Assembly: GCA_036268055.1 (NCBI GenBank)
Contig: DATAUW010000018.1
Span: 186,001 to 250,000, forward strand
Source: Verrucomicrobiia bacterium
GTDB taxonomy: Bacteria > Verrucomicrobiota > Verrucomicrobiia > Limisphaerales > Pedosphaeraceae
Reading direction: 5' to 3'
DNA: 64,000 nucleotides
In this document: one piece after another, positions 14,251 to 40,200 of the stretch
Layout of the letters: the number at the start of each line of letters is the position of its first letter
Numbering within the stretch: position 1 is the stretch's first letter
Translations under genes and position numbers: made by a program
The notes under the pieces: generated by a model
What the model saw: the letters and a program-made list of their open reading frames with translations, nothing else
Database searches by the model: none
What the model was told of the DNA's origin: nothing

Positions 14251-15129
14251 ATGAAGCCGACCACCCATAGCCGTCACGAAATGAGTATGCCTGCGGACGG
14301 AACTTCAAATTTTCAAAGCCCGAGCCGTAACTCATCATTTTTTCGCGGCCAGCGCTCCGCCTTTACCCTCATTGAGTTATTGGTAGTTATCGCGATTATC
14401 GCCATCCTGGCCGGGTTGCTGTTGCCCGCCCTCGCCAAGTCCAAGCAAAAAGCCCAGGCCATCCAGTGCATAAATAATTCCCGGCAAATGATTTTCGCCT
14501 TGCATATATATGCGGGCGATTTCGCAGACGGCCTCCCGAATAATATTGGCGGAGACACCAGCATGAACAGTTGGGTGTATGGCGAATTGTCTTGGTTAAA
14601 CTCCAGTGACAATACGAATTGGGTCAAAATGCTTCAGGGCCAGATGGGCCGTTATACTCAAAACTACCAAATCTATCATTGTCCGGCCGATAAGAGCATC
14701 GCTCCCGGAATGACCGCTCCGCGCGTCAGAAGTATTTCCATGAACTTTGCGTTCGGGAATAAATCAACCACTTTGCCGGTCATCAAGACCTATGACGATA
14801 CCTGGCCCAACTTTCTTAAAATGTCTGATGTGCGAAATCCGTCCCTGACTTGGGTGTTCAATGATGAGCATCCCGACAGCATTAATGATGGTTTTCAATG
14901 CACTCCCGATGCTGACGCCGAAACCAATGTTTGGGGTGATTTGCCGGCTTCCTATCATAATGGCGCTGCGGGTTATGCGTTTGCCGATGGTCACGCCGAA
15001 GTTCACAAGTGGGTCAACACCGCTAATACCGATCAGCCCGTCCGTCAATCCTCTTCGTACCTGCCGCTTACAGTAACTGGCGTTAGGGATGACATCATTT
15101 GGGTCGAAGCCAGAATTTCTCCGCCCTGA
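14251..15129 (+). CDS. prepilin-like protein, H-X9-DG type (1)
   Basis: A type IV pilin-like pseudopilin of about 292 aa. It has a basic N-terminal leader, then the prepilin peptidase motif and helix ([14 protein letters not shown]..., residues about 35-60). A globular part includes [10 protein letters not shown]. The C-terminal H-X9-DG motif ([20 protein letters not shown]) defines a prepilin-processing-associated family abundant in Verrucomicrobia, Planctomycetes and Lentisphaerae. I chose ATG 14251; 14281 is also possible. It lies 50 bp upstream of the LamG/Ig giant in the same direction and is probably co-transcribed with it. It likely sits in the inner membrane and is assembled or presented through a type II secretion/type IV pilus-like system. 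Confidence 0.88.
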
Positions 15130-15179
15130 CCACCAACCCAGTCTTTTCGGAAAGCCAACCAACCAGCACTCAGAAACCT

Positions 15180-18100: not shown

Positions 18101-18407
18101 GGGAGTGACACCTGATCCCACCGGCCTCGTCACTGTGACTTATATCTCCGATACCAACGCGATCAGCGGTTTCTCCGGTGAAGCGCCGTTCGATGCCGCG
18201 CAAGTCATCGGCTCCACTGTGACTCATCCCACCCTGACCGTTCAGCCTTCAGGCACCAATGTCGTGATCACCTGGAGTCCAACCAGCAGCATCCTGCTCT
18301 CATCCACGAATGCCACCGGACCTTATGCGGTCGTGCCCGGCGCAACCTCCCCATATACGACTAATACCTTGAGCAAACAACTCTACTTCCGCGTGCACAC
18401 GCCATAG
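15180..18407 (+). CDS. giant secreted LamG/Ig-like protein
   Basis: A 1075-aa exported protein. Signal peptide MRKYLSTCLLITALAGGAANA. Two LamG-like concanavalin domains follow (about 30-330 with FHLVVTYDGTNANFYTNG; about 390-620 with WHQIVGVSDGSTATMYVDG). Then come two Ig-like domains (about 625-800; YQWFQGS, YQWYNGT, each ending GNYSVVVSN or similar), a further beta domain (about 800-1010, SYTIYLYAGNYDGNRG), and a C-terminal module ending QLYFRVHTP. The architecture suggests carbohydrate binding or adhesion at the cell surface; no catalytic motif. It starts 50 bp after the prepilin gene and ends 16 bp before a strong terminator. I chose the ATG at 15180, which gives the signal peptide. Confidence 0.85.
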   Translation: MRKYLSTCLLITALAGGAANAQYSNAVVALSPVAYWPLNETVQPPAAFVATNSGVLGAKANGYYNNPYYPVGDGTYGQRNLFNGPQTGVTSDGDASAGFAGGVNANDNSGYLLIPQINGDLNVGNAFTAEIWVMPGGGDPNDTTGGSFSSSEWAGLIKIGGGGLFYTENGDASGNTYGFTLSMAGVNTLGFPVGWYGGVPYTGPIQLQTNATWVVDFFGGNNGNTPSLEFDVPFLEPTPTWFHLVVTYDGTNANFYTNGVLAATTVPGTPQSTNSVWAANQSPITSASGAYQFAAVNGKNFAPDTINPLCIGNINESFSIISQGFPAANAIGFNCQVFNGSVDEAAVYTNALSAAAIAKHYADATASNTNLYKADVLSSNPIVYLRFDEPAYTTPDSSTFPIAANYGSMGSAGQGLYQPGTIAATPGAPVAGFGAQSVAVEVNGLDAAVDVGQGTLSGSPLDPTGTTPFSVAAWFRSNPADCYGRFQTMIGRGDSGWRFSLDNSGHTRWNPGAGPELNSTVNYNDGAWHQIVGVSDGSTATMYVDGQVASTQGGVGNLGGTFQDLLIGGAPDYTTSDRNSSQQRYFPGQIAQVAFFPTALTSGQVQTLYNAADILPFITHEPVASITIGQGSSGSLSVTPGGTAPFGYQWFQGSTKLSEVPGNIVGSTNQTLVITNAILANAGNYSVVVSNAYGAVTSSITVVTISQLPTILSQPTPAFATNYVGNQITYSANVAGAATLKYQWYNGTNAISGATASNLVVTTVAGTSKYDLVITNSVGAVTSSVVTLVGQTFVPPPSGFVVNFAVPQNNVATNVYVGQGAYSDPGNNVWNPFPAASGTATAPALSSTSNQTLVTATLTYGFNNGATANTTQGTPSYLLAFEDAVNAGSPGIGTSLQPEGQIQFKGLPQGSYTIYLYAGNYDGNRGSIFSINPINGGVADGGTNDAENGSVIGGNAIANGTCTFAEGDNYVFFRGVTPDPTGLVTVTYISDTNAISGFSGEAPFDAAQVIGSTVTHPTLTVQPSGTNVVITWSPTSSILLSSTNATGPYAVVPGATSPYTTNTLSKQLYFRVHTP

Positions 18408-20097: not shown

Positions 20098-20214
20098 CGG
20101 TTTGAACTTCTTGAATTGCGTCGGAAATGATGGTTTAATGATAACTAGAACCAATGTTTCCGTTAAGCGCGCCGAACCAGCCGCCGCCATATTTTTTTGA
20201 TCTTCAATACCTTT

Positions 20215-23200
20215 ATGTCACGCAGATTTGTTTCCCCCTCTAGTCGCATCGAATGGTTGTTTCGCGGCTTCGCCATGGCGATGGTGTTTCTGTTTGTATC
20301 CGCCGCCATCGCCAGTGCCACCGACCTGAAAATAATTCCCGGCCATGTCCCCAAAGGTATGAATGGCGTCGCCGCCGTCTCCCATCTGCCTTCGACCAAT
20401 CGGCTGCGCCTGGTCGTGGGATTGCCCCTGCGCAATCAGGCGTCGCTGGACAATTTATTGGTGGAACAACAAGACCCAACCAGCACAAATTTCCATCGCT
20501 GGCTGAAGCCCGAGGAATTCGCCCAACAATTTGGCCCCACCACCGAAGATTATGAAAAAGTGGTTCATTTTGCGGAATCCAACGGACTCGTGGTGGAAAG
20601 CCTCACTTCCAATCGCATGTTGGTGGACGTCCATGGCGAAGTCACTAATATCGAAAAAGCCTTTCATCTAGGTTTGCACGTTTACCCGCATCCAACCGAG
20701 AACCGAAATTTTTACGCCCCGGACACCGAACCCACCGTTGACGCCAGCGTTCCCATCCTCCACATCAGCGGCCTGGATAACTTCATCCTGCCGCATCGCT
20801 TCGGTGGAGGAATAAAACCCCTGGACACCAATCCAATCGTTGCCTACGCGACCGGTTCGTCCCCCGGCGGATTTTTCATGGGCAAGGATTTTCGCACCGC
20901 TTACGTCCCGGGCGTGACCAACACCGGCGCCGGCCAATACATCGCAGTCGTGGATGTCGGCGGCCCTTATTATTCAAAAGACGTTTACCTGTATGAGACC
21001 AACGCCGGCCTCTCAACCAACACCGTCGTCACAAACATCTTACTGTCCGGCTCGACCGGCATCCCCGTCGGCAACACCGCCAACGAAGGCGAACAAGTCC
21101 TCGACATTGACATGGCCATGTCCATGGCCCCCGACGCCACCATCTTGAACTACGAAGGCGAAGCCCACGACGTCTTCAACCGCATCGCCAGCGACAACCT
21201 CGCGAAACAAATCACCCTGTCCTACGGCTTTGGCATTGATGCCACCATCATCCAATATTTTCAACAGTTCGTCGCGCAAGGGCAGGCGTTCAGCCAGGCC
21301 TCCGGCGATGGTGGCGCGGATTTGGACGGCGGCACTGGGTTAACCGGCGTGCCCTACGCAACCATTGTCGGTGGCGTTTCCTTGACGACCTCTGGCGCGG
21401 GCGGCCCGTGGCAATCCGACATCACCTGGGGCGGCAGCGGCGGCGGCGTCAGCGGTTACGGCATTCCCACTTGGCAGCAAGGAGTAAGCATGGTTAGCAA
21501 TCTCGGTTCAACGAACTTCCGCAACTACCCCGACGTCGCCATGCCTGCCATCAACATCTTCACCGTCTATGAAAATGGCACTCTCATCGGCGGAACCGGC
21601 GGCACCAGTGCCGCTTCGCCATTGTGGGCCGGATTCATGGCCTTGGTCAATCAACAGGCCGCATCGCTCGGTCAGACTTCTGTTGGCTCTCCTAACCCGG
21701 CGATCTACGCCATCGGCAGAGGACCTCTCGCCACTTACACGAAAGCCTTTCACGACATCACCAGTGGCAACACATTCAACAGCCAAAACCCAACCAAGTA
21801 TCCGGCCGTTTCCGGTTACGATCTGGCGACCGGTTGGGGCTCGCCGACCGGCAGCAACACGATTAACGCGCTCGTCGGCACTGGCACGAATGACTTCACG
21901 TTTTATATCTTGCCGGGCGTTTTGAATATCGTGCCGGGCGGCACACTCGCCGCAACGATCCCGGTCACGCGACCAAATGGCTACAACGGCACTATCTCCT
22001 TCGCAATTTCCGGATTACCTACAGGTGTTACCGCGGTGTTCAATCCGGTGGCCACTACAAGTTCAAGTCTTCTGACCTTTTCAGTCGCGCAAACGGCGTT
22101 GCCCGGCACCAATTCGATCACTATCACCGGCACATCCGGCGTCTTGTCTCACACCGTCAAACTCAACCTCGCAATCGTGTCGCCGATTCCCGGGTCAACC
22201 CCGGTTAATCTCTCATCGCTTTACAATCGCGTGGGAATTTGGTCAGACGGGCGAACCTTCAGCGGCGGTGTGGACAATGTGGGATACGCTTTCTCCGCGA
22301 ATTTGGTAAGCGCTTCGCCAAGCTGGAACGGCTTGGTTTTTAATCTTGGCCCAGCGAATGCCCTCGACGTGGTCAGTTGCAGTTCGCAAGTCGTCACGCT
22401 CCCCGCGGGAAATTTCACCTCGCTGAACATCCTTGGCACAGGTGTGGAAGGCACGCAAACCGCGCAGACCCTGACGGTGACTTATACGGATAATTCCACC
22501 ACTAAGTTCACAAATAGCTGGAGTGACTGGGCCAACCCGCAACATTTCGCCAGTGAGACACAAGTGATCAACATGGCCTACCGCAACAATGGCAGCGGAA
22601 GCAAAGACCTTTTTACGTCGGTCAATCTTTACGGCCACAGCTTTGCGCTCGACGAAACCAAGATAGTAAAAACTGTCACGCTTCCCACCAATGCGAATGT
22701 CATCGTGGCAGGAATCGTACTGGCGAACGAACCGGCTGCTGTCTCGCTGGGTTTGTATTACAATCGCCCGGGCATGTATTCCGATGGCGTGACCTTTACC
22801 AATCCAGCTACAGGCGGGGCTGACGGTGGCGGAGCCGCTTATTCGGCGACGTTGCTGACTGGATCACAAATCTGGACGAATACGCCTTTTAATTTCGGCC
22901 CGGCCAACACCAACAATATTATCAGCACCGCCGGACAAACCATTCTTTTGCCCAAAGGCAATTACTCAATCCTGCGGATGATCGCCAGCGGCGTGCAAGG
23001 CAGCCAGGCTTCGCAGACTTTCACCGTGACCTACGCGGACGGCACGACCAACAGCTTCCTGCAAAGTCTGAGCGACTGGTTTTCGCCGCAAAACTTTTCC
23101 GGTGAATCGAAGGCCATAACCATGGGACATCGCAACAGCAGCAACGGCACGGCGGACAACCGGACGTTCTATTTCTATGGCTACTCGTTCAAGTTGAATA

Positions 23201-23757
23201 ACGCCAAGGTGGTTCAAAGCTTGACACTGCCGAGCGATGCCAATGTCCTCGTTGCTGCCGTGAGCCTGGTTCCAAATTGGGCCCCGGCCTTCAAGGTGAA
23301 TCCCTTTATAGAATCCGCAATCACCGCCGGACAAAGTTATTCCGCGACGATGGTCACAAATGCCAGCGACCTTAATGGCGACGCGCTCACCTATGCCAAG
23401 GTCAATGGCCCCAGTTGGTTAAATGTGGCCACTAGTGGTTTCCTCTCGGGCACGCCGCTCTCTTCACAGACTGGTAACAACACATTTCTTGTCAGCGTGA
23501 TTGATTCCGGCGGGATGTCGAACACGGCCACGATGACCATCAATGTGCTTCCCGCGCCAGCCATCGTTTCCGGGTTCACGAGCAATACGAATGGCATCTC
23601 CATGAACTGGACTGGTGGCATTGGTCCTTTCCAGTTGCAGATGTCAACCAACCTGGCGCCGGGATCCTGGATAAACGTGGGCAGTCCAATTTCCTCAAAT
23701 ACTTTCATCATCCAACCCAACGGACCGGCGGCATTCTACAGAATCATGGGAAACTAG
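20215..23757 (+). CDS. S53 family peptidase (sedolisin/kumamolisin-like), multidomain
   Basis: A 1180-aa secreted acid serine-carboxyl peptidase. After a signal peptide (GFAMAMVFLFVSAAIASA) comes a pro-kumamolisin activation domain (about 30-190). The catalytic domain has the ExxxD pair Glu293/Asp297 (GEQVLDID), the oxyanion Asp in ASGDGGAD, and Ser465 in GGTSAASPLW. After about residue 570 there is a beta domain, then two tandem copies of a 170-residue domain (about 660-840 and 840-1025) sharing YNR.G..SDG..F, GPA, LP.GN and QT.TVTY.D. A cadherin-like domain (PAFKVNPFIESAI...) and a C-terminal module ending FYRIMGN follow. I chose ATG 20215; an in-frame TTG lies at 20197. It should digest proteins outside the cell at low pH. 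Confidence 0.9.
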   Translation: MSRRFVSPSSRIEWLFRGFAMAMVFLFVSAAIASATDLKIIPGHVPKGMNGVAAVSHLPSTNRLRLVVGLPLRNQASLDNLLVEQQDPTSTNFHRWLKPEEFAQQFGPTTEDYEKVVHFAESNGLVVESLTSNRMLVDVHGEVTNIEKAFHLGLHVYPHPTENRNFYAPDTEPTVDASVPILHISGLDNFILPHRFGGGIKPLDTNPIVAYATGSSPGGFFMGKDFRTAYVPGVTNTGAGQYIAVVDVGGPYYSKDVYLYETNAGLSTNTVVTNILLSGSTGIPVGNTANEGEQVLDIDMAMSMAPDATILNYEGEAHDVFNRIASDNLAKQITLSYGFGIDATIIQYFQQFVAQGQAFSQASGDGGADLDGGTGLTGVPYATIVGGVSLTTSGAGGPWQSDITWGGSGGGVSGYGIPTWQQGVSMVSNLGSTNFRNYPDVAMPAINIFTVYENGTLIGGTGGTSAASPLWAGFMALVNQQAASLGQTSVGSPNPAIYAIGRGPLATYTKAFHDITSGNTFNSQNPTKYPAVSGYDLATGWGSPTGSNTINALVGTGTNDFTFYILPGVLNIVPGGTLAATIPVTRPNGYNGTISFAISGLPTGVTAVFNPVATTSSSLLTFSVAQTALPGTNSITITGTSGVLSHTVKLNLAIVSPIPGSTPVNLSSLYNRVGIWSDGRTFSGGVDNVGYAFSANLVSASPSWNGLVFNLGPANALDVVSCSSQVVTLPAGNFTSLNILGTGVEGTQTAQTLTVTYTDNSTTKFTNSWSDWANPQHFASETQVINMAYRNNGSGSKDLFTSVNLYGHSFALDETKIVKTVTLPTNANVIVAGIVLANEPAAVSLGLYYNRPGMYSDGVTFTNPATGGADGGGAAYSATLLTGSQIWTNTPFNFGPANTNNIISTAGQTILLPKGNYSILRMIASGVQGSQASQTFTVTYADGTTNSFLQSLSDWFSPQNFSGESKAITMGHRNSSNGTADNRTFYFYGYSFKLNNAKVVQSLTLPSDANVLVAAVSLVPNWAPAFKVNPFIESAITAGQSYSATMVTNASDLNGDALTYAKVNGPSWLNVATSGFLSGTPLSSQTGNNTFLVSVIDSGGMSNTATMTINVLPAPAIVSGFTSNTNGISMNWTGGIGPFQLQMSTNLAPGSWINVGSPISSNTFIIQPNGPAAFYRIMGN

Positions 23758-24509: not shown

Positions 24510-25421
24510 CTAATCGAGAGCTGAAGTCCGCTGCTGCATCCAGTTGACATCCACCGCACTATCATTTGCCTTTTGGCTGTGGTTACCGGTTCCGGTGTTG
24601 AGCAGGATGGTGCTGCCCTTCCACCGATGAATTTCAGAATGTCCATCGGCAAAGGAAAATCCTGCGCCACCGTTGTGCCAACTGGCGGGAAAATCTATGA
24701 TGTCGGCCTGAGGACCGGTAGATTGCATTTGAACTGCAAACATGGCGTCATTGATGCTATAAGGATTTTCGTCGAGCAGTACAAAAAGCATGGAAGGTCC
24801 CGGGAGGTGTGTGTCAGAAATCTTTCCATACGTATGCCACGGAGCCGGGCAGCCATTACCGACATTCATGTCGGTCAGCCACTGCCCATTCACAGCACCA
24901 CCGGGTGGCGAACACTTGAGCGCGATCGGGGTAGTCCCCACCGCCTGGCTCATGGAAATGCTCCGAACGCGATCGCCTTCGCCCGGAACCGTACTTTTAT
25001 CCGCCGGGCAGTGGAAGACGCCAACAGATTTTATATAGGATGCGAGCATGCAACGGGTCGGATCCAGAAGCGCGTTGCTGTTGGTATTGTCAGGATTGGT
25101 TGCGGTAAAATCCTCGTTCATGTTGCACCATGAGGGAATTCCAGTCCCGGGAAAATTATAGGGCCAACTGTCAGCATTATCGCCGCCATACAAGTGAAAG
25201 CACATCATCACTTGCCGGGTATTGTTGATGCAATAGGTTGCTTGGGCTTTTTGTTTGGCTTTGGCCAGCGCCGGAAGCAGCAACCCCGCCAGAATCGCTA
25301 TGATGGCGATGACCACCAGCAATTCAATCAGAGTGAAAGCGCCTCGCCGGCTGGCGGACTGGATTGGATAGGAGATTCGGTTATTTCGTTTCATACGTTT
25401 TTCAATAAGGGTTTTATGCAT
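24510..25421 (-). CDS. prepilin-like protein, H-X9-DG type (2)
   Basis: A 303-aa pseudopilin with a basic leader, the prepilin motif [14 protein letters not shown] (about 28-41), [20 protein letters not shown] in the middle, and [20 protein letters not shown] near the C-terminus (H-X9-DG). I chose ATG 25421, preceded by AGGG; ATG 25394 is an alternative. It lies downstream of the 1592-aa giant on the same strand, separated by a strong hairpin, with a dyad motif just upstream, so it probably has its own promoter. Same family as the genes at 14251 and 47721. Confidence 0.88.
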
Positions 25422-25534: not shown

Positions 25535-28500
25535 TTAAGGCAGCACCAGTTGATAGAACTCTTGCGAGCCCGTCACCGGCACTGTGACTTGATTCATTCC
25601 GCTCACCGTCGTGACGGCGTTCGTGACGTTCGACCAGCTTGGCGAGGTCAGGCTCGCGCTCTTTTGCAGGACGTAACCGCCCACACCCGCCGGCCAGGTC
25701 AGGTTCAGATTCGTGCCGGACGCAGTTGCCGACAGATTCAGCAAGCTGATGAATTGGAAGTTGCTGACTTGCTGGGTGGCGAAGCTTCCGCCGTCAGCGC
25801 CAGTGAATCCGACATAAGCCGTGTTTGCACCTACCGTTGACGGCACGTTAATGCTGGCCGACGTCGAATAGGAGGTGCCGGCATTCGTATCCTGCAAGGT
25901 CAGCGATGCTTTCCCATTAAGATAAGTCAGCGTGGTTGCGATGACATCTCCGCTCGAGATAAGCACGGGTGAAGGGAATGTATTCGGCCCAATGGCGCCG
26001 TTGATATCGAATGCGATACCCACACCGCTGGCCACACCGCCGTAAATGTTGAATTCAAGTTCAACACTGGGGATGATAGTGTTGAGGGCCAGGGTTCCAC
26101 CACCAGCACCCAGCGCAGAAGCTCCGCGAGGATCGTTCTGGATGACAAACCCGATGCCGTCCGCAGGATTGCCGCCCCCGCTATCAGTCACTTGATAGAG
26201 CCAGCTTGCCTTGAAGCCGCCCACATAAACCGGGAAGCTGAAGAAGCTGCTGTTCGCCTCGCTGCCAAGGCTGGAGGTCAACTGGATCACGTTGGGAGCC
26301 ACATACAAACTGGTTCCGCTGGTGCCCTGAGAGGTCCAGCCCGATCCTAGCCCATTGAATCCAAGCACCGGCAATACCGTAACTGCCGCTGTCGTTGATG
26401 CGGCCGTGCTGCCACCGTTGTTGGTGTTATTCACCAGGACTTGATAATTCCCGGAATCGCCCAACTCAGTGTTGAGGATCGTCAAGGTATTGCTTGTGGA
26501 ACCAGAGATGCGGGCATTATCCGAAAGATTGGTTCCATTGTCCTGCCATTGATAGGTCAACGGCGGGCTGCCGCCGGCCGTCACCGACAGGACGAGTGGG
26601 TATCCCGAATACACGGCATACTGAGGTTGGAGATCCGTTTGGATCACCGGCGGGCCGCTAACCACGGTCAAAAACACTGGGGCAGTGGCAACCGAGCCAA
26701 AGGAATTTGACGCTACGAACTGGTAGTAATTTCCGTTGAGGCTCTGCGAAATATTCGCAAGCGTGAATGTCCCGTTGGTTTGTCCGGCTATCGCCGTGGT
26801 CGGATTAGCGCCATCCGAGTGATACCACTGCATGCTGAGCGGCGCTGTGCCGTAAGCTGAAGCCACAAAGGATATCGTGCTGCCTTCGGATGCCGTGATA
26901 TTGGTCGGTGATATGAGGAGTCTCGGAGCTATGCCCGCCGCAAGGAAGTGGGCCTGCACCTGATTGGAGGTCAAGGCGTAGTTATAAAGCGAGACTTCGT
27001 CAACTGAACCTGAGAGTTGATCGCTCGGAGCAAACGCATTGGTCGTGGAACCGTTGCGCCAGCCGATAGTGAAACGGTTGGTGGGAGCATTATCCGCCAG
27101 GACGCCCATGCCGTTGGTTGGCAGTGGCACTAACGCAGCGAGTTGGCCGTCAACCCACAGATATTGACTTTTGTTGGGTTCGTCCAACACGGCAACGACA
27201 TGATGCCAGTTTCCATCAGCATTTTTACTGTTGGCATTCGCGTTATGGGCCGCTCCGGCCGCGTCGCGGAAATAGAAGCGGAAGGAATTGGACGTGCCAC
27301 CGGTATCAATAGCGAACTGTTCGCCACCGCCACCGTAGCCAAGGCAAACGATTCCCGCGCCGGCGATTTGGGCAAAACCATTTCCAGTTTGAAGAGGGTT
27401 GACCCAGGCTTCAATCGAGAAGGTACCGTCCTGGTTGGTAGGCTTCGCGAAGTTGATGCCTTGCACATCAGTCACGTAGCTGAAGTTCGTGTTCACCGTG
27501 CCGAACGCCGCTGCCGTGTCGGAATCGTTCGTGCTGTATCCTGCAACTCCGATAACGGCGTTGCTATAAACACCGTCGTGGCTTCCGACATAATCAATGG
27601 CCGCAATGCCATTATTACCGGCTCCATCATCAGGGGTTTCATCCAGCCGGAAATAGGCAATCGGATGGTCAGCCACGATGGCGTTGGCATACAAGCCGAC
27701 CGGCGCGATGATTGTCAGATTTACAATCGAACTGGTGGTGACACCGAAGACGTTGCTAACCACAACATCGTATGTTCCTTCGTCAGCCATCGTAATGTTA
27801 GCCTTGCTGTAAGTGGCGTTTGTGGCGCCGGTTATTTTGGTGGTCGAATTTTGATACCATTGATAGGTGATCGGAGAAGGGCCATTGGCGACTACGCCAA
27901 ACGAGAGCGTGGCCCCGGCAAACAAGGTCTGAGATGCCGGGAAAGGCTGGGTCGTGATTCCCGGCGCGATCGGGGTCAAGCTGCCGAGGAACTGAATTTC
28001 GCCTATCTGCAAGCCAGCCGCCGTCGTATTGGTCTTGGTGTTATTGAAAGTGACGCGATAGCTCGTGTAGCCAGAGGTATTCGCGAAATCAACTTCCTGC
28101 AACACATCGTTGGTGACGTTGATTGCCGAAACAGTGTCGAGATTGCGCGTGTCCGGCAAAGCCAAAGCTTGATCGGGCACAATCTCCGTCCAGTTAGTGC
28201 CGCTGTCGTTGGAACCTTCCAACATGAAATCCGCTGGATCGCTGGCCGCCGAGTTGGCAGTCGTATAAAACCGCAGGGCATACACGATGGAACTTCCGAC
28301 TGCCGGCGTGATGACGAAGCTGACTGGGCCGTCGAACGGAGCAATGTTGGTTCCCGAAGTTCCGTAGTTCAAGTAAGGAGCCAAAGTCCCGTCAACCAAT
28401 GAGGACGCGGTCTCGCCAGCGGGAGAGGCAAACACTTCCACGTCGGAGATCGAATCGCCAATCCGCGCAATATTCGTGCCGGTCGAATGCAGAAGGGTAA

Positions 28501-30313
28501 GCGGAGCAGGGGTGCGAAGCTGGACATTGGTCGTCACCGAATTAGTCACCAGGCAGGTGTAATACGCGACATCGCTCGCACCTACATCTGAAATAGTCAG
28601 GTTAGTTGTCGTGACTCCGCTGATAGTCGAGCCGGTGCCGGTGCTGCCGTCGCTCAGATTACTAAATGGACCATTGGGGCCGGGGCCTTTCTGCCATTGG
28701 AATTGCGGCGCCGTGCCGAAAATGGTGGCAACGCCGAATTGGGCCGTTTGACCCGCATACACATTCTGCGCGGCTGGAACTTCCAGGGGCGAGAGCGTCA
28801 CCGCAATCGGATCCGTCGTCGCGCTAACTGCGAGAACGTAAGTGGTCCAATTCGCGCCGCCAGCCGAGAAGTATTTGCAGACGATGTTAGTGATCGGGCT
28901 CGTGGTGTGCAGCAGTTGGAATTGCGATTCAAAAATGCGGGGATCCAGGAACGGAAGATTGGTCACATTTTGAAGCGAACGGGCGGCGTTGAAATTCGCA
29001 CGGCCATTCGCGCCGTAAGCGACGACCACCGGAACCCCCGCGCTGACGGTGCCATTGTTGAACCAATCGAAACCGAAGAAGAAGTTCGTTTCGTTCACCC
29101 CGTCCGCGTGTTGGAGAATGATGACGTTGGTCATCACGTTTGCCGCACCGATGGAAGCGCCGGCGGTCAGGAGCGAAACAGCGGTATAAGCCGCAGGCGT
29201 GATCGGGGTGATGTTCGCGATCTGATGATTCGTATCAATCAGCGTGGACATCGGACCCTGATAGCTGGGAGCCATCTGATATTGGCGCCCGGTCGAGATG
29301 CTGGTCAGGATGGAATTATGCGCCGGGAAACCGGAGAGGGGATGGTTGGTATCCCAGCCGACTTCGAACCAGGTATTGGCGCCCGCGCCGCCGGAACTGA
29401 TGTTCGTTCCGTTATCCATCGTGGCGTTGTAAGGCAGCGGCAAAGGAGTTTGCTCGATGATGGGGTCGCCATCATAGCCGGTGACGGTGATGGGACTGAA
29501 TGCCCCACCCGTGCTGCCGCTCATTGCAAAAATACAGCAACGACCGCCGTCATGATAGGTAAAGGAAATACTGGTCACCGGACTGGCCGTGTCAGTAAGA
29601 GGAATGTCCAACGACCAGAGAACGCACTGACTCACATTGCCGGTATTACCGTAGGCAGTGGTCGTGGCGCGACCCAGGGCGGAAAAAGCTTCCACTGGAA
29701 CCAGCGTCGTGTTGTCCTGGCTGCCCGTGTAGGCGCCAGTCGTGCTATTAAATGCTCCGAACCAATCCGGTCCAATGATACCGTTGGTTTCAGACGTGCC
29801 GTCTTGATGGTTGACCACACAGGTCATGCCGCAAGGGCCGTTGCCGGCGGAAAGCAGCAGCGACAGGCTGCTGTAGGCGGCAGGCGAGGGGACAAAAAAC
29901 GAACCGGTCGTATAGTTGTTCGTAAATCCCACCGGAATATTGGTATAATTGCCGATGAACACGGCGCAATTTCCCACATACGTCGGCGGCATCTGATACA
30001 CGTGATCCGCTTTAAACCGGTTAGTAGCCAGCGTCCCGGGGTGAGGCAGGCCAAACGGGTTAATGGTCGTGGCGTTTAATAGATCCAAGCCGAGTTCAAA
30101 AAATGTATTTCCAGTTTGAGCTGGGCCGGCGTCCATGGTCACCGTGATCGCATTTTGCGAGGGCAGCGCCGGGTAGTTACTTTCGATCACGATATCGTAG
30201 GTAAAACTACTCGTAGTTAGTGGAACAGGTGAATAGCCGGCGTAGGTTTGGGCCGAAGCGCCCAACAATACGGCGCAGGCACTTAGTAGTTTGGACAATT
30301 TGATTTTTGTCAT
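25535..30313 (-). CDS. giant secreted multi-lectin/LamG/Ig protein
   Basis: A 1592-aa exported protein; signal peptide MTKIKLSKLLSACAVLLGAS. Order: two copies of a roughly 200-240-residue module (about 28-275 and 275-510; landmarks DIVIE or PIIE, Y.MPP/APSY, PAAY, DWF, SPVT/SPIT-I, FAMSG/AVSA); Ig-like; a discoidin-like domain (about 640-790, EGSNDSGTNWTEI); Ig-like; LamG (about 870-1130, WHHVVAVLDEPNKSQYLWVDG); two Ig-like domains; an L-type-lectin-like domain (about 1330-1520, ADGIGFVIQNDPRGASALG); and a C-terminal module ending EFYQLVLP. Several sugar-binding folds in one chain suggest glycan binding at the surface or on particles. It is divergent from the GH76 gene, which carries the same N-terminal module. 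Confidence 0.85.
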   Translation of the reverse strand: MTKIKLSKLLSACAVLLGASAQTYAGYSPVPLTTSSFTYDIVIESNYPALPSQNAITVTMDAGPAQTGNTFFELGLDLLNATTINPFGLPHPGTLATNRFKADHVYQMPPTYVGNCAVFIGNYTNIPVGFTNNYTTGSFFVPSPAAYSSLSLLLSAGNGPCGMTCVVNHQDGTSETNGIIGPDWFGAFNSTTGAYTGSQDNTTLVPVEAFSALGRATTTAYGNTGNVSQCVLWSLDIPLTDTASPVTSISFTYHDGGRCCIFAMSGSTGGAFSPITVTGYDGDPIIEQTPLPLPYNATMDNGTNISSGGAGANTWFEVGWDTNHPLSGFPAHNSILTSISTGRQYQMAPSYQGPMSTLIDTNHQIANITPITPAAYTAVSLLTAGASIGAANVMTNVIILQHADGVNETNFFFGFDWFNNGTVSAGVPVVVAYGANGRANFNAARSLQNVTNLPFLDPRIFESQFQLLHTTSPITNIVCKYFSAGGANWTTYVLAVSATTDPIAVTLSPLEVPAAQNVYAGQTAQFGVATIFGTAPQFQWQKGPGPNGPFSNLSDGSTGTGSTISGVTTTNLTISDVGASDVAYYTCLVTNSVTTNVQLRTPAPLTLLHSTGTNIARIGDSISDVEVFASPAGETASSLVDGTLAPYLNYGTSGTNIAPFDGPVSFVITPAVGSSIVYALRFYTTANSAASDPADFMLEGSNDSGTNWTEIVPDQALALPDTRNLDTVSAINVTNDVLQEVDFANTSGYTSYRVTFNNTKTNTTAAGLQIGEIQFLGSLTPIAPGITTQPFPASQTLFAGATLSFGVVANGPSPITYQWYQNSTTKITGATNATYSKANITMADEGTYDVVVSNVFGVTTSSIVNLTIIAPVGLYANAIVADHPIAYFRLDETPDDGAGNNGIAAIDYVGSHDGVYSNAVIGVAGYSTNDSDTAAAFGTVNTNFSYVTDVQGINFAKPTNQDGTFSIEAWVNPLQTGNGFAQIAGAGIVCLGYGGGGEQFAIDTGGTSNSFRFYFRDAAGAAHNANANSKNADGNWHHVVAVLDEPNKSQYLWVDGQLAALVPLPTNGMGVLADNAPTNRFTIGWRNGSTTNAFAPSDQLSGSVDEVSLYNYALTSNQVQAHFLAAGIAPRLLISPTNITASEGSTISFVASAYGTAPLSMQWYHSDGANPTTAIAGQTNGTFTLANISQSLNGNYYQFVASNSFGSVATAPVFLTVVSGPPVIQTDLQPQYAVYSGYPLVLSVTAGGSPPLTYQWQDNGTNLSDNARISGSTSNTLTILNTELGDSGNYQVLVNNTNNGGSTAASTTAAVTVLPVLGFNGLGSGWTSQGTSGTSLYVAPNVIQLTSSLGSEANSSFFSFPVYVGGFKASWLYQVTDSGGGNPADGIGFVIQNDPRGASALGAGGGTLALNTIIPSVELEFNIYGGVASGVGIAFDINGAIGPNTFPSPVLISSGDVIATTLTYLNGKASLTLQDTNAGTSYSTSASINVPSTVGANTAYVGFTGADGGSFATQQVSNFQFISLLNLSATASGTNLNLTWPAGVGGYVLQKSASLTSPSWSNVTNAVTTVSGMNQVTVPVTGSQEFYQLVLP

Positions 30314-30639
30314 AGCGGTTGCGTGTTTCTCAGCAGGGACTAATGGATGGGTCTGAGTTGTTTTGGTTAAGGATAAGCATCGTAACTACTTACTGCTTCG
30401 ATCTTTCTTTCAGCCAGATTTGCGGATTTCTGCCTGTTTCTAAGGGATTGAAATACAGTTACCAAAGTAAGTCTCCATTTGCAAGGGAAAATTTTTATTA
30501 CACGCCTTTTACAAGCTATGGAAAACCCAGTACCAAGTTACATAAATCGGGTCTGAAAAACCTAAAATCGGGTCACGTCGGTAGGTAGTCTTTCGGATTG
30601 CGAGCAGGGATATTTTATGTTACAAGTCAGGGCTATCCG
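30314..30639. promoter_or_regulatory. divergent promoter region between two giants, with a phased direct repeat
   Basis: No gene supported. AAATCGGGTC occurs at 30544-30553 and 30565-30574, starts 21 bp apart (two helical turns), about 70-95 bp before the plus-strand ATG. It is a likely regulator site for the GH76 gene or for both genes. Confidence 0.45.
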
Positions 30640-33600
30640 ATGACCGCGCAACTGTTCACGAAACAAGCTGGTATTTGTCTTGCCGTCATGCTTGCTTCCG
30701 GCCTAACGGCGGTTGCGGCTTTTTCACCGATCGCTTTGACCGGCGGCAGTTACAATCAGGATGTCGTCGTCGAACGAACCGCGCCCGCCCCGTTGATCGC
30801 CGGTGGATATACCACGGCCTCAATGGACAGCGGAACGGGAAACTCCGCCACCAGTTGGTATGAGCAGGGCTATAACGTGAGCAGCCCAACCACCGGATTG
30901 CCCCACGCTGGCGCGACTTTCACTCACCAAAGCGCAGCCGATCACCATTATATCATGGCGCCGAGCTATGCCGCCCCGGATGCAGTCCTCATTGATTCCA
31001 CGATTTCTCGCGCGACTCTCACGCTCACTTCGCCCGCCGCATATAATAAACTCTCCTTTTTGGAAAGTGGCGGACACAACGGCATCGTCTTCACTTATAC
31101 CGTCCATCATCAGAGCGGCGCTTCCGAGACTGGCAACGGAACCATCATTGACTGGTTCAACGGCGCCAATCCGGCGTGGACGGCGAACGGGCGGGTGGAC
31201 GTTGGCACCTTCGCTTTCAGCAATGTCAGCGGCAACGATCCCCGGCTTTACTCATTGGACATCATGCTCGCGAACAGCGCATCACCAGTCACGAGCATTG
31301 ATTTCTCTTACGTTTCTGGCACCGGAGAGGGAGCCATCTTCGCCGTCAGCGGTTCCACCACGGCGGATTTCAATCCGATTGCGGTGACCGGTTTCAATGA
31401 AGACATCGTGATCGAAGCCACTGCGGGCGCATCGGGAAATCTTTCAGGATACACGACCAGCACAATGGACACCGGCAATGCCAACACCGCGAATACCTGG
31501 TACGAAAATGGTTTCGTCCGTACAGCGCCCACGACCGGTCTGCCGCCCGCCGGTTCCATTCTTACCAACGTCACCGCGCCCGATCATCTGTATGTCATGG
31601 CTCCGAGTTACGCCGCGAAGGATGCCCTGCTGCTGACGTCGAATGCCCCCACCGGCAACTTCGTTCCGGTCACACCGGCGAGTTATTCGGCGCTCTCATT
31701 TCTGGTGAGTTCCGGCAACGGCCCCGTCACCGTTGGCTACAGTCTGCATCATGCGAATGGCGTCATTGAAAGCAGTTCCTTTGCGGTTCCGGATTGGTTT
31801 TACGGAGCGCCGGTCGCTTTTTATGCCAATGGCCGCGTGAATGTCAGTTCCAAAACCGTGGATTCCATTAATGCCAGCAATCCCCGGCTGTACGCGATTG
31901 ACGTGCCGCTGTCCACGACGAGTCCTGTCACTAACATCGCGTTCACCTGGCTCTCGGGCGGCAGCAGTTCCAGCGCGGTCCTCTTTTCCGTCAGCGGCGG
32001 AACGTCCACGCTCTTGCTCGCGCGGGACGATTTCAACATGAACACTGGCGCGGCCGTCCAATCTCTCCAGCAATGGTACAACGCCAGCGGCTTGTGGAAC
32101 ACCACCGGCTGGTGGAATTCGGCAAATTGCATCGAGGCGGTCGAAAACGACATCGCCGCGAACAACGATTTGCAATACCTCGCCATCCTTACCAATACCT
32201 TCAACTTGAATTCTGGCGGCAATTTCCTCAACGATTATTATGACGACGAAGGGTGGTGGGCGAATGCCTGGATTCACGCGTACGACCTCACCGGCAACGT
32301 AAAATTTTTGAACATGTCGAAGACCATCTTCGCCGACCTGACGAATGGCTGGGACCTTTCGACCTGTAATGGCGGCATCTGGTGGAGCAAGGACAAGACA
32401 TATAAAAACGCCATCGCCAACGAGCTTTTCCTGCTCACGGCGATCCGGCTGCATCAACGCACTCCCGGTGATGCCGGCGTCGGCAGTTATTTTTATTGGG
32501 CCACCAACGAATGGTCGTGGTTCCAGGCCAGCGGCATGATCAACGCCCAGCATCTCATCAACGACGGCTTGAATTCTTCCTGCCAAAACAACGGCGAAAC
32601 CACCTGGACTTACAATCAAGGCGTCATCCTTGGCGGCCTTACAGATTTATACAAAGTGACGGGCGATTCAAATTATTTGAACACCGCCATTTCCATCGCC
32701 AACGCCACTATCAGCACGCTCGTGAACAACCTCGGCGTGCTCGAAGAGCCTTGCGAAACGGGCGGCTGCGGCGGTGGTGATGTTCCTCAATTCAAAGGCG
32801 TCTTCATGCGGCATCTCGCCTATCTTTATGACGAGACGCGTTCGACTTCCTACTACAATTTTCTTCATCAGAATGCGCATTCGATTTGGTTCAATGACCG
32901 AAATGTTTTCAATCAACTGGGCTTGAAATGGTACGCCGCTCCCGACGCCGAGGACGCCGCGCGGCAAAGTTCGGCGTTGATGTCTGTCAGTGCGCTGGCC
33001 GAACCGGTTACGACATCGCTCCCGTTCGCGAAAGGTTCCGGCGATCCGGCATTCAGCCATGCGCTTGGGTTCGCGAATGGTTCGCTGGGATGGTCATGCA
33101 ATCCCAGCAATACCGCCGCGCCGGGGCTGCTTCAATACGGCCCATCCATTTCCTATTTGTCCGCCGGTATGCACGCGGCACATTTTCAAATTGCCGTGGA
33201 CGCCTTGAGCAACTCGCCCGCAAATCTCGCCCAAATTTCTGTGCTCGACGACACAAGCAATACGACTCTCGCCAGCGCAAATGTTTCGTGGAACGCTTTC
33301 GCCGAGACCAATCGCCCGCACGATTTTGTTTTGCTTTTCACGAACTCAACCACGCTCGACCCGCTGGAGTTTCGCGTGTTCTGGAACAACCTCGCCGGCG
33401 CGCCGACCCTGATTTTGAGTGATGTGACGGTGGATGGCTTGGTGAATTGGACGGCGGCAAACCTCACGCATGACACCGGACGCTTCGATGGATTCAAAGG
33501 CTGGGAGGCGGATCCAATTCGCGATAAAGCATCGGCATTTCTGGTGCGCGGACCTGGCACGAAAGAAATTCCCACCGGCGATTATGTTGCTCAATTTGAA

Positions 33601-34068
33601 TTGCGGGTGGACAACTTCAATCTGGATAATTCTACTGTGGCTGCCATCTCCGTATATGATTTGGACCACGCGACAGTGATGGCTTCGGCGAACCTGACGC
33701 GCAATCAATTCGCGAACGTGCGTTACCAAACTTTCTCCCTGAATTTCAACGCCGTCGCCGGCACGCATTACGATTTTCGGACTTTCTGGTATTACAGTCC
33801 GAATGCCCCGCGCCTCACCCAGCGCAGTGTGATGTTGCGCCCCGGCCCGATGAGCTTTTTCACTTCCACGCAGGCCACCAATGGAACGGTCACGATGTCT
33901 TTCACCGGCGTGCCGGGCACGACTTATACCGTCGAAGCCGCCGATAATATTTCTAATCCGCAATGGTCGCCCCTTCAAACTGTCACTGTTCCGGCGGCGT
34001 TGGGGAGTGTGGAATTCACCGACGCGATTTCCTCATCCAATCGCTTATACCGGTTGAAGCATCCTTGA
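30640..34068 (+). CDS. secreted GH76 alpha-1,6-mannanase-like enzyme with tandem N-terminal modules
   Basis: 1142 aa from ATG 30640 (signal peptide to about residue 23, [10 protein letters not shown]); an in-frame TTG lies further up at 30598. Residues about 25-235 and 235-447 are two copies of the module shared with both neighbouring giants (VVVE/DIVIE, TSWYE/NTWYE, MAPSYA, DWF, SPVT, FAVSG). The catalytic domain (about 460-815) matches glycoside hydrolase family 76, with the catalytic aspartate pair D535-D536 in [14 protein letters not shown] and later [11 protein letters not shown]. Two beta-sandwich domains and a C-terminal module ending LYRLKHP follow. GH76 enzymes cleave alpha-1,6-mannan, as in fungal cell walls. 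The family call rests on motif memory. Confidence 0.8.
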
Positions 34069-34200
34069 CGAGATAGTAAGTGCTGTCAGCCCACTTATAA
34101 GTCGCGGCGGCACATTTATTACAAAATTATAATCAAATTAAAGGCAGCAAGTAGGAGAAAGAGGCTGACTTTCTCACTGAAAGATGCCATATATAACTCA

Positions 34201-37200
34201 ATGACCCCTCCGTTTGCTGTAATCTCCATTTCGCGGTCACCGGCTCGTAACTTGTTGTTCGCGCTCACCGTTTTCACTCTATTATTTTTACGCGCGCCAA
34301 AAATAGTCGCCGCCAACATGACGCCCGTTGCGATGACCGGATTCAACCGCGACCTCGTCATTGAGAATAGTACGCCCGGCCCACCCTACAGCGCCGCCGC
34401 GCTGGAATTCAGCCCGGGTGAAGGAAATGGCTACTATCAGCATGGCCTTCCAAACTACACCGCCGGTTTGCCTGCGACCGGTTTGTTCACGAGCGCCATC
34501 GGTGACGGCACTATGTTTCAACTTCAGCCGTACACCACAAACAATGCTTTGGTGCTTAGCAGCGAGACCGGCATTTCCTCCGGCACGTTGACGCTTTCAG
34601 CGCCCGCGACTTACCTTCGTATCGCGGTCATCGCCAATTCTGCCAATGGCAACAGTTCCGGCGCGGCCACCATCACGTTTAAGTTCAGCGACAACAGCAC
34701 TATCACGGGCACTTACTTCGCGCCCGATTGGTTCAACAACGTGACGAACGTGGCTCTGGCGGGAATGAACCGCATCGGCATCAGCACCGGTTCGGAAAGT
34801 GGCGGAGGGACCAACCCTCGGTTTTATCAGACAACCTTCGATCTGAACGCGATGCTCGGTGCGGCCAACCAGCCACTGGTGAGCATCACGTTTTCAATGC
34901 CCTCCGTGGCCAAGTCCACTGGCATCTTTGCCGTCAGCGGTGAACTGGCAACCTCGATGCTCACTCCGCCCGTCATTGTGAGCCAGCCCGCCAGTGTTCA
35001 AGTCAACGAATTGTCGTCCGTCAATTTCAACGTCTCCGTTACCGGCAATCCCGTTCCTTCCATTCAATGGTACAAAAATGGATCGGCGATCCTAGGCGCG
35101 ACGAATCCGGTCTTCAGCATCGCCGCCGCGTCGTTGTCGGATGATCAAGCGAAGTTCCAGGCCGTCGCCGCTAATTTCTTCAGCAACCATACTTATACCG
35201 CCACCAGTACTCAGGCCACGCTCACCGTTGTTCCGGTGATGAAGCCGATTATAGTGAAAGGTTTCAATCTCGACGTGGTCATTGAGAATACTGCGGGAGC
35301 CGCGCCTTACCAAAGTTATGCCCAGGAATTAAATCCGAACGAGGGCAAGGCCTTTTATCAAAACGGCCTTGCCGGCACGAGTTACGGGATGCCGCTGAAT
35401 GGTTCGTTTCTCAGTCTCATTGACGGCACGCAATTCCAGTTTCAGCCTTACACAAATAATAATGCGCTCGCGTTGAGTTCGGACACGGGCATTTCCTCCG
35501 GCACGCTGACGCTGACCACTCCGGCCGTCTATGGCCGGATTGCCTTGATCGCCAATTCCGCCAGCGGCGGTGGCAATGGCACGATGTCCTTGCAATTTTC
35601 CGACGGCACCACGCTTGTGACCAACTTCTACGCGCCCGATTGGTTTAACAATACCGGCTACGCGCTGGGCGGCGTCGAGCGCATCAGCCTGTCCACCGGC
35701 GCGACTGACGGCATGGCGGGGACCAGCACCGAAGACCCGCGGTTTTATCAAACCACGATTGATTTGAATGCCTTGTACGGCGTGACCAACAAGGGACTTG
35801 TCAGTCTTTCCTTTGATCAAGTTGCGGGAACCGGCGCGACGGCGATCTATGCAGTCAGTGGAATTCTTGCGCCGCCATCGCCAGCGGTGATCGTATCGCA
35901 ACCTTCGCCTGCCAGTGTGATTGAACTTTCCCCGGTGAGTTTCACTTCTTACGCGGGCGGCAGCCCCGCGCCAGCCGTGCAATGGTATAAAAATAATAAC
36001 CCAATCGCCGGGGCGACAAATTCCATTTATAACATTCCATCCGCCGCGCTCGCGGACAATCAATCCAGTTTTTACATGGTTGCGGCCAACCTGATCGGCA
36101 GCACGCATTACAGCGTCACGAGCAGTGTGGTGACGCTGACCGTCATCGCGGATACCAACTCCCCAATTTTGCTCAACGCAAATTCGCTCGGCTTGAACGA
36201 AGTGTTGCTGGCATTTAACAAACGCATCAGCATCGCGACGGCGACGAACCTTGCGAACTTTTCAGTTTCCAGCACGAACGGTGCGCTTGCCATCTCTGCC
36301 GCGAACCTCGACAACTCACAAAGCAATATCCTTCTCTCCGTGAGTCCGATGGTTGATGGAACTTCCTATTTGGCCACCGTGAATAATCTGCAAGACCAGA
36401 CCGCGGCGGGAAATGTGATCGCTGCGAATTCTCATGCCCAGTTTGTCGCCAGTGTTTTCACGCCGGATGCCATCGGCAATCCTCCCTCAACCGGCGGTGA
36501 AGTGCGAACGCCAGGTGGCTTGACGGTTTCGGGCAACGGCTCGGACATCGGCGGCACCAACGACCAATTTCAGTTTGGCTACGAACTCATCACCGGCGAT
36601 TTTGATGTCAGCGTGAAACTTTCCAGCCTCGGCTTGTTCGACCTTTGGGCAAAAGCCGGTTTGATGGCCCGTGCGACCCTCGCGCCGAGCAGTCCGTTCG
36701 CGGCCTCGCTGGCGACGCCCGGCATGAATGGTTCCTTTTTGGAATCGCGCCTCGCGACGAATGGCCCATCCACCACCGCTGGAAATTTTCCTGTGAATTA
36801 TCCCGACACTTGGCTGCGATTGAAACGCGCGGCAAATGTCTTCACCGCGTTCGCCAGTTATGACGGACTGACCTGGACTTCGCTCGGCGCGGCCACGATT
36901 GTGATGTCGAACCAAATCTATCTCGGTTACGCGGTCAGCAGTCACAATTCGGCGCAATCTACCACAGCGCAGTTCTCGAATATTTCAACCGTCCCCAATA
37001 CCGCGCCCACCGGCACCATCGTGAATCCCAGCGAAACTCTCGGCCCGTGCAGCCGCAAATCGGGAATCGTCTTTTCAGAGATCATGTACAAACCGGCGGC
37101 GCGCACCGACGGCAACAATATTGAGTTTATCGAACTTTATAATTCTAATCCCTGGTTCTTCGATATCAGTGGCTATCAGGTGACTTGCGCGGACATGAAT

Positions 37201-40200
37201 TACACATTCCCGCCCGGCACGGTGATGAGCGCCGGTTCATTCCTCATCATCGCCGCTTCGCCGTCGGGCATTCAAAATGTCTATGGCATCACGAATGTCA
37301 TGGGACCGTACACCGGCAGCCTGAAAAAATCTGAGACGCTGGAATTGATTGATGAACATGGCGCGGTATTGCTGACCGTTCCGTATTCGAATTTGAATCC
37401 ATGGCCGATTGGCGCGGATGGTGAGGGCCATTCGATTGTGCTGGCGCATCCGACTTACGGCGAAGGTGACCCCCGCGCCTGGTCCATCAGCGATGCCGTC
37501 GGCGGCTCGCCAGGAACGCAGGAAGCCTTTCGCCCAAGTCCCTTCCGGAATGTGGTGATCAACGAAATCCTGCCTCACTCCGAAAATGTGAACGTGCCGC
37601 AATTCATCAAACTTTATAATCACAGCGCGGCGCCGTGCGACATCTCGGGCTGTGTGCTGACGGATGACGCATCGGCGAATAAATTCACCTGCCCGCAGGG
37701 AACCATCATTCCGGCTTCCGGTTTTATTTCATTCAACCAATCCCAACTCGGTTTCACGATGAACGGCGGTGGCGGCACGGTTTATTTCATCAATCCCGAT
37801 CACAGCCGCATCTTGGATGCGGTGCAATTTGAAGCGCAGGCGGACGCCTCCTCCTTTGGCCGCTCGCCCGATGGCGCGAATGATTTTTACCGTCTCACCA
37901 CACCCACCCCCCCCACAAATAACAGCAGCATCCTGATCGGCAACATTGTCATCAACGAATTGATGTACGATCCGATTACCGAAAATGACGACGATCAATA
38001 CATCGAGCTTTACAACCAGGGTTCCAACAGCGTGAACCTCGGCGGTTGGCAATTTACTTCGGGAATTACGTTCACTTTTCCAACGAACACAATCATCCCC
38101 GCCAATGGGTATCTCGTAGTTTCGCGCAACGTGACGAATCTGCTGGCGAAATATTCCAACCTGAATTCCGCCAACACCATTGGTAATTACAACAGCAAAC
38201 TTTCGCACAACGGCGAGCGGGTCGCGCTGGCGATGCCGCAAACTTTAAACGGCTCCAACACCATCTATGTCGTCGAGGACGAAGTGACTTACGGGATCGG
38301 CGGACGCTGGGGAGAATGGTCTTCGGGCGGCGGCAGCAGTCTTGAATTGCTGGACGCGCATTCCAACCATCGCCTCGCCGCCAACTGGGCCGATAGCGAT
38401 GATACGCAAAAATCCGCGTGGGTGAATATCGAAACCACCGGCGTGCTGGACAACGGCGCGAACTTCGAATCCAGCATCATGCACGCGCAAGTGGGATTGC
38501 TCGATGTCGGCGAATGCCTGGTGGATAACGTCGAAGTGGATGACACCAACGGCGTCAATTATGTTTCCAATCCCGATTTTGAAAATGGCCTGACAAACTG
38601 GGTCCCGCAAGGTTGTCATGTGCGTTCATCGCTCGAAAACATCGGATTCGCCGGAAGCCATTCGCTCCATGTCCGCAGCAGCGACCGCATTTTCACGGGC
38701 GATAATTCCTGCCAGGTTTTGTTAAACGCCAACACGCTCGGGGCTGGGAAGATGGCGACGCTGCGATTCAAGGCGCGCTGGATTCGCGGCTGGCCGGAAG
38801 TATTGTTGCGCTTGAATGGAAACTGGCTGGAAGCAGCCGGAGCGCTTCCCATTCCAGCGAACCTCGGCACGCCCGGCGCTGTCAACAGCCACGCAGTCAC
38901 CAACGCCGGTCCCGCCATTTACAACGTCACTCACTTTCCGACGGTTCCCGCCGCCGCGCAGAACGTCGTCATCACAGCCAATATCCACGATCCCGACGGC
39001 TTGCAAAATTTGACGTTGAACTATCGCATTGATCCCTCGACGAATTATGTCGCGGTTGCCATGCACGACGACGGCACCGGCGGCGACGCCATCGCGGGCG
39101 ACGGTATTTTCAGCGCCACCATTCCCGGTCAATCGGCGAATGTCGTGGCGGCGTTTTACATTTCCGCCACAGACAAGTTTGGTGCAGCCACGCGTTTTCC
39201 ATCCTTGCTCCCGGACAATTCCCCGGTGCGCGAATGCGTCGTGCTATTCGGCGACGGCAATCCCGGCGGCAGTTTCGGCGTCTATCATTTGTGGCTTACC
39301 CAAACCAACTTCGCGCGGTGGACCGCGCTGGGGGATTTGAGCAATGAAGGAAACGATTGCACGTTCGTCAACGGCTCGCGGGTCATTTATAATATGCAGG
39401 GCCGCTTTGCCGGCAGTCCCTTTCATCAGGAATTCAACACGCCCAATGGCAACCTCTGTCATTACAAATGGGTTTTCAATGACGACGATAAATTTTTGGG
39501 CGCGACCTCATTCAACAAAATCCATCAGCCCGGCAACAGCCCCGGCGATGATCTCACGCTCCAGCGCGAGCAGACTTCCTACACGTTTATGCGCGCCCTC
39601 GGCGTCCCGTGGCTCAGCCGCCGCGATGTCGCCGTCTATGTCAATGGCAACCGGCGCGGCGCGCTCATGGAGGATTCGCAAGCTCCCGATGGCGACATGG
39701 TAAAGGAATATTTTCCGAACGACAGCGGCGGGTTCCTCTACAAGATGCAGCCGTGGTTCGAATTCGCCCCGACGCTTTCCGGCAGCAGCTTGGGTGAAAG
39801 CGCGGAATCGTATTGCAACATCCTTCCTTACACGACCACCGGCGGCATGAAGAAAACCGCCCGTTATCGGTACATGTTCGAGATGCGCCGTACTCCGGAT
39901 TCCGCGAGCGACTATACGAATGTGTTTTCGCTGGTGGACGCGGCCAATTCATCCACCACGCCAAATTATGTCGCCAATATGGAGAACATCGCCGACATGG
40001 AAAATTGGATGCGCGTTTTTGCCGGCAATCACGCCGCTGGCAATCTGGATTCATTCGGCTCCGAGATCAGCCAAAATCTTTTTGGCTACATTGGCACAGC
40101 GGGCACGAAATATTCTCTGATGATGTGGGATTTCAACATTGATCTCGGCGGCCCGGAATCATGGCTGCCCGGGCAAAATCTTTTCAATGTCGGCACGGTG

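Follow-up and report, generated by a model that had tools for sequence, protein, structure and literature searches.

AziU2-related modules repeated in neighboring secreted proteins of a Verrucomicrobiia bacterium: a widespread family with a possible role in glycan targeting

Analysis of a 64,000-nucleotide stretch of the genome of a Verrucomicrobiia bacterium (assembly GCA_036268055.1, contig DATAUW010000018.1, positions 186,001 to 250,000; hereafter the window) revealed three neighboring genes for large secreted proteins, designated A, B, and C, which share a repeated unit of 211–244 residues. A fourth gene nearby codes for an S53 peptidase containing two divergent copies of the same unit (Table 1). 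The signal peptides of A, B, and C lead straight into the first unit, as read from the sequence, and the domain sets further downstream differ from protein to protein.

Table 1. Genes, domains, and repeat units of the locus, numbered from the first letter of the window.
Feature	Position	Strand	Residues	Description and basis
S53 (kumamolisin/sedolisin) peptidase	20197..23757	+		Activation domain, catalytic domain, S1-S2, He_PIG, C-terminal FYR-type domain
Unit S1, divergent	22165..22716	+		S53 peptidase, mid-protein; S1/S2 boundary approximate; profile hits
Unit S2, divergent	22684..23277	+		S53 peptidase, mid-protein; related to domains on Streptomyces plasmids; profile hits, model
Prepilin-type N-methylation (pseudopilin-like) protein	24510..25421	-		Between S53 gene and protein A; without units
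Protein A	25535..30313	-	1592	Signal peptide, A1-A2, Ig domains, LamG-like domain, C-terminal FYR-type domain
Unit A2	28811..29500	-	230	Second in protein A; alignment, BLASTP, profile hit
Unit A1	29504..30235	-	244	First in protein A, directly after signal peptide; alignment, BLASTP, profile hit
Protein B	30640..34068	+		Signal peptide, B1-B2, GH76 domain, C-terminal FYR-type domain
Unit B1	30721..31362	+	214	First in GH76 protein; alignment, BLASTP, structure model
Unit B2	31369..32007	+	213	Alignment, BLASTP, profile hit
GH76 catalytic domain of protein B	32089..32994	+		Endo-alpha-1,6-mannanase family; DD motif YDDEGWWA
Protein C	34201..42627	+	2808	Signal peptide, C1, Ig, C2, Ig, five lamin-tail domains, CotH kinase-like domain, FYR-type C-terminus
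Unit C1	34318..34950	+	211	Alignment, BLASTP, profile hit
Unit C2	35239..35871	+	211	Ig domain between C1 and C2; alignment, BLASTP, profile hit

An earlier note on this DNA had proposed a tandem unit of roughly 200–240 residues with fixed landmarks, present twice in each of three neighboring proteins and always at the N-terminus. The unit and its double occurrence were borne out by alignment and BLASTP, yielding six units, two apiece in A, B, and C, with significant pairwise links (E 2e-57 for B1/B2, 4e-69 for C1/C2, and 2e-31 for A1/B1), the weakest pair being A2/C1 (E 2e-4, 37 bits). The two units of one protein share 28% identity in A, 44% in B, and 53% in C. A control with shuffled units gave a top score of 43 bits in 18,000 comparisons. 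This maximum was exceeded by 13 of the 15 unit pairs and the remaining two are joined via third units, which confirms both the repeat and its location. Secreted proteins rich in Ser, Thr, and Gly are capable of spurious similarity, and the two weakest pairs lie under the shuffle maximum; nevertheless, we rejected low complexity, or a convergent likeness among beta-sandwiches of several origins, as an explanation with practically no probability. The motifs are collinear, pairwise E-values reach 4e-69, the structure of B1 is predicted with high confidence (mean predicted local distance difference test score, pLDDT, 96.6), and both branches of the family described below have the same unique full-length fold match.

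Other parts of the proposal held in part. Among the six units, the landmark DWF is found in all, but VIE varies (VIE, VVE, or IIE), MAPSY is restricted to A2, B1, and B2, and SPVT or SPIT to the units of A and B. The layout of two units per protein stands, but C1 and C2 are not arranged head to tail, since an Ig domain lies between them. The N-terminal position applies to A, B, and C, but not to relatives in other genomes, in which units also occur mid-protein, near the C-terminus, or as the whole exported protein. Furthermore, a fourth neighbor had been missed: the S53 peptidase (Pfam Pro-kuma_activ, E 2e-27; PDB 1t1e kumamolisin, E 3e-33), located ~7 kb upstream of protein B, in which S1 and S2 were detected with a profile grown from relatives in other genomes. 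A search of the whole 5.1-Mb genome with the 72-member profile returned exactly eight units, every one of them in this stretch and distributed over four neighboring genes. The probability of four random sites falling within 22.5 kb of 5.1 Mb is about 4e-7. Of the two GH76 genes in this genome, one carries units.

The predicted structure of B1 is a beta-sandwich, the top Foldseek match of which is AziU2 (E 5e-7, template modeling (TM) score 0.61). VIA-align gave the same match with Z 17.5 over 175 residues at a root-mean-square deviation (rmsd) of 2.8, with the next family at Z 8.6. For S2 of the S53 peptidase, modeled with moderate confidence (pLDDT 71.5), AziU2 was again first (Z 18.6, 176 residues aligned, rmsd 4.0; next 7.6). 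On the sequence level, searches of PDB sequences with the six-unit and the 72-unit main-branch profiles returned nothing significant. The profile built from the S53 and actinobacterial units retrieved AziU2 (Azi28) over almost its full length with E about 1e-21. This intermediate branch could in turn be linked by hhalign to the six window units (E 8e-10) and to the 72-member family (E 8e-19); since the 72-member set includes both S53 units, the former value is the independent one. Based on these two routes, i.e., the predicted fold and the sequence path through an intermediate branch, we consider the homology of the module to AziU2 solid. A second tier of fold matches consists mostly of carbohydrate-binding modules (CBMs), namely CBM29, CBM86, CBM8, CBM11, CBM6, and CBM35, with Z scores that unrelated sandwiches commonly reach as well. 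The fold lists also contained Cry toxin domains, PAPP-A, and Eph receptor domains, all set aside as generic sandwiches (Z <9).

Comparison of 72 family members with Pfam-A (models to 2025), NCBIfam (June 2026), and PHROGs gave no credible match, and neither did that of the S53/actinobacterial branch with Pfam and NCBIfam. Stray hits had E-values of 0.001 or worse and mostly concerned one or two members each, with four for one short motif. No unit matches the F5/8 type C (discoidin) family PF00754 at E 0.1, a domain found elsewhere in some carrier proteins outside the units. A CBM match is likewise absent in Pfam and NCBIfam, CBM folds appearing at Z 6–9 only, and our literature search found no paper on the module itself. 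The suggestion that the unit corresponds to no named domain is thus upheld by the profile scans; "undescribed" applies to its lack of a library name but not to its ancestry, given the homology to a solved enzyme subunit found by profile search and structure prediction. The module, unnamed in Pfam-A, NCBIfam, and PHROGs, forms a new and widely distributed branch within a family of which one enzyme subunit is solved. That it belongs to a CBM family which already has a CAZy number or was recently described is improbable in our estimation. Its relatives are widespread on glycosidases and may have been noticed, and CAZy/dbCAN profiles lie beyond the libraries compared; Pfam-A and NCBIfam, however, hold no named match, and the AziU3/U2 fold was still termed novel in 2024 (PMC11168924). 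In addition, AziU2 is the sole solved structure below E 0.01 by sequence, so that none of the structurally solved CBMs is closely related.

Relatives were searched with the single unit C1 as query. Within even genome samples, units were found in at least 8 of 387 genomes on phylum level and in at least 21 of 384 on class level, both samples including this genome and both counts being lower bounds, as few candidates per genome were scored. Taken together, the relatives cover Verrucomicrobiota, Planctomycetota, Bacteroidota, Actinomycetota, and Burkholderia, those outside the phylum coming from plasmid records of the planctomycete Frigoriglobus, Streptomyces, Arthrobacter, Burkholderia, Prevotella, and Segatella. 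They contain one to three units per protein, in positions that include mid-protein and near the C-terminus. A maximum-likelihood tree of 72 units resolved a C-type group (support 100/100) and an A/B-type group (100/99), the GH76 units B1 and B2 falling with the Ig-protein type. A2 groups with the second units of two relatives (L053 and L018; 100/99), indicating that proteins with two units existed before these genomes diverged. The S53 units lie on a separate long branch, the exact placement of which is unsure. The closest relatives suggest that the genome itself belongs to a verrucomicrobium near Pedosphaera. In relatives of the same order, an LTD/CotH-type protein (lamin-tail domains, LTD, with CotH) that carries units lies near a second unit carrier, either Ig-type or peptidase-like (G419, G436, G606, and L018); the LTD/CotH type is Pfam-confirmed for the window and L060 only and elsewhere deduced from how the units group and from protein size. 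Not all carriers cluster in this way; others are scattered. A search for a viral origin gave no relative in IMG/VR with C1 as query and only partial fold matches in BFVD (TM by query length ≤0.36).

Two further carrier types were observed. Proteins of ~270 residues in five loci (L007, L008, L010, L011, and L014; open frame of 321 in L007) combine a signal peptide with a single unit and a PEP-CTERM-like tail composed of a PEP motif, a hydrophobic stretch, and arginines, the unit being the entire exported part. Two others (L012 and L013, from G101 and G259) have an SGNH-hydrolase-like start followed by units alternating with another repeated domain (HAVDVTSAGDGA...VGWDF).

Across the relatives, the fusion partners, found by sequence alone, comprise GH76, GH85, GH92, GH3, GH31, S53, and GDSL enzymes, next to stand-alone forms. 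The GH76 domain of protein B is well supported (Pfam PF03663, E 2e-43; PDB 9r4k of the CtGH76 group, E 8e-45), and the DD of its YDDEGWWA aligns with the DD of 9r4k in the DD.GWWA motif, placing it in this family. In total, ten glycosidase carriers were counted: three with GH76 (window, L062, and L064), three with GH92 (L074, L076, and L080, from two Streptomyces and one Burkholderia), two with GH85 (L084 and L085, from Prevotella and Segatella), one with GH3 (L077 and L079, counted once), and one with GH31 (L078). The GH76 carriers show three arrangements, with units before or after the catalytic domain, and in Segatella a GH130 gene stands beside the GH85 gene. Eight of the ten fall in families that a review (PMC10154615) assigns to the breakdown of high-mannose N-glycans and fungal alpha-mannan. 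The partner enzymes suggest a preference for mannose-rich glycans. In terms of the CAZy-type definition, the unit is a contiguous module in carbohydrate-active enzymes (GH76; elsewhere GH92, GH85, GH3, and GH31) with a discrete fold of high confidence. The glycan binding that had been proposed from the attachment to GH76 is therewith plausible and strengthened by GH92, GH85, GH3, and GH31 in other phyla, whereas GH76 alone would be weak support, since most partners in Verrucomicrobiota are not glycosidases.

By sequence and fold, the unit is a secreted, very probably non-catalytic beta-sandwich of the AziU2 family. With a probability of about one half, we read it as a CBM-like targeting module, with mannose-rich glycans as the likeliest targets. 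Its extracytoplasmic location follows from the signal peptides together with the stand-alone PEP-CTERM-like forms. The unit would hold its carrier enzyme or surface protein on glycans of the substrate or the cell surface, most likely fungal alpha-mannan or high-mannose N-glycans, and two or three units in a row could provide higher avidity. The cluster would thus give a GH76 mannanase, an S53 peptidase, an Ig/LamG protein, and an LTD/CotH protein one common targeting head, and AziU2 would have branched off from the family to serve as a partner subunit in the making of an antibiotic. Several observations weigh against this proposal. The most conserved positions of B1 (Gly50, Gly59, Pro61, Asp144-Trp145, and Ser210) look structural. 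AziU2, the only relative that has been studied, works as an enzyme subunit within a hetero-complex and is not a known lectin. In Verrucomicrobiota, most carriers are proteins other than glycosidases (LTD/CotH, Ig/LamG, S53, NHL, SGNH-like, and stand-alone forms), and the mannose theme is drawn from ten carriers, some of them close relatives of one another, with no background rate for the enzyme families concerned.

Because of these mostly non-glycosidase carriers and of the stand-alone PEP-CTERM-like units, a serious rival is a protein–protein docking or spacer domain that links the giant proteins with one another or with a surface scaffold, without a glycan ligand, with AziU2 reflecting the ancestral role. 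We regard it as possible, though not as the probable explanation. It would fit the very mixed catalytic partners and the many carriers without any, the co-occurrence of units with Ig, LamG, LTD, and other adhesive domains, and the concentration of all eight genome units in four neighboring genes, as if their products met; AziU2 itself was solved in complex with AziU3. The fusions with GH92, GH85, GH76, GH3, and GH31 across phyla, in contrast, are the usual company of substrate-binding modules, and stand-alone PEP-CTERM-like forms occur in genomes in which only one or two units were found. Far less likely, in our judgment very improbable, is that the units are themselves enzymes acting on a sulfated or amino-bearing glycan or on a small molecule. 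Their closest solved relative is indeed half of an aziridine synthase, but complete catalytic domains adjoin the units, the most conserved residues appear to be structural rather than catalytic, and AziU2 has a Phe at the near-invariant Trp of the family.

In the broadest form of the targeting proposal, which we put forward tentatively and hold to be possible but less likely than not, a large uncatalogued glycan-binding family in at least five bacterial phyla, favoring mannose-rich glycans, was the source of the Streptomyces aziridine synthase subunit. If this is true, the fold termed novel in AziU3/U2 would be a common extracellular lectin-like fold. A module present on many secreted enzymes and nameless in the searched libraries gains a family and a testable function, and the placement of AziU2 in a widespread family bears on the origin of aziridine synthase. 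If glycan binding is confirmed, the module would represent a new CBM family involved in the turnover of fungal alpha-mannan and N-glycans.

Additional features were recorded in the giant proteins and their surroundings. Protein B likely starts at the ATG at 30640, the listed open reading frame beginning with TTG at 30598. Protein A has a weak legume-lectin-like match near its C-terminus and ends in FYQLVLP, and the CotH kinase-like domain of protein C lies at about 39535–40359. A C-terminal domain of ~75 residues, ending near FYR[LVI]xxP right before the stop, is present in five window genes (20197–23757(+), 25535–30313(-), 30598–34068(+), 34201–42627(+), and 15099–18407(+)). Its profile has 85 matches in the genome, its end lies 0–4 residues ahead of the stop codon at all 20 places checked outside the window, and Pfam showed no match there on the window proteins scanned. 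This FYR-type domain may serve this group of Verrucomicrobiota as a C-terminal signal for sorting or secretion, with a role like that of type 9 secretion tails. Prepilin-type N-methylation proteins (14122–15129(+) and 24510–25421(-)), one with a DUF1559 match, adjoin giant secreted proteins. A gene at 8811–12257(+) encodes a protein that combines a transglutaminase core with a CBM9-like domain, and a gene for a GntR/LacI-type regulator comes next at 12277–13356.

Among known systems, AziU2 (Azi28; PDB 7wuw, 7wux, and 8gs1), part of the AziU3/U2 aziridine synthase of azinomycin biosynthesis in Streptomyces sahachiroi, is alike in fold over the whole unit and keeps the Asp of the DW motif. The complex was described as a novel fold in the AlphaFold 3 paper (PMC11168924) and is functionally an aziridine synthase according to a review (PMC12559475). 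AziU2 differs by Phe in place of the near-invariant Trp of that motif, by an identity of 15% to the window unit, and by being a biosynthetic enzyme subunit paired with AziU3, whereas the window units are extracellular tandem modules. The beta-sandwich CBMs (CBM29, CBM86, CBM8, CBM11, CBM6, and CBM35) share the general sandwich arrangement and the company of glycosidases, but reach Z 6–9 over roughly 100–125 residues without a sequence match, most being some 60–80 residues smaller. The domains on GH92, GH3, GH31, and GDSL proteins of Streptomyces, Arthrobacter, and Burkholderia belong to the same family by profile and, as the window units, form an extra domain on a secreted enzyme. They differ in being ~180 residues long, single, and C-terminal or mid-protein, on a separate branch common with the S53 units of the window. 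The C-terminal domain of the Prevotella and Segatella GH85 endoglycosidases stands nearer to the main branch found in Verrucomicrobiota (profile E 1e-33 and 1e-27), differing in that a single unit precedes an apparent C-terminal sorting tail and an F5/8-type discoidin domain is also carried.

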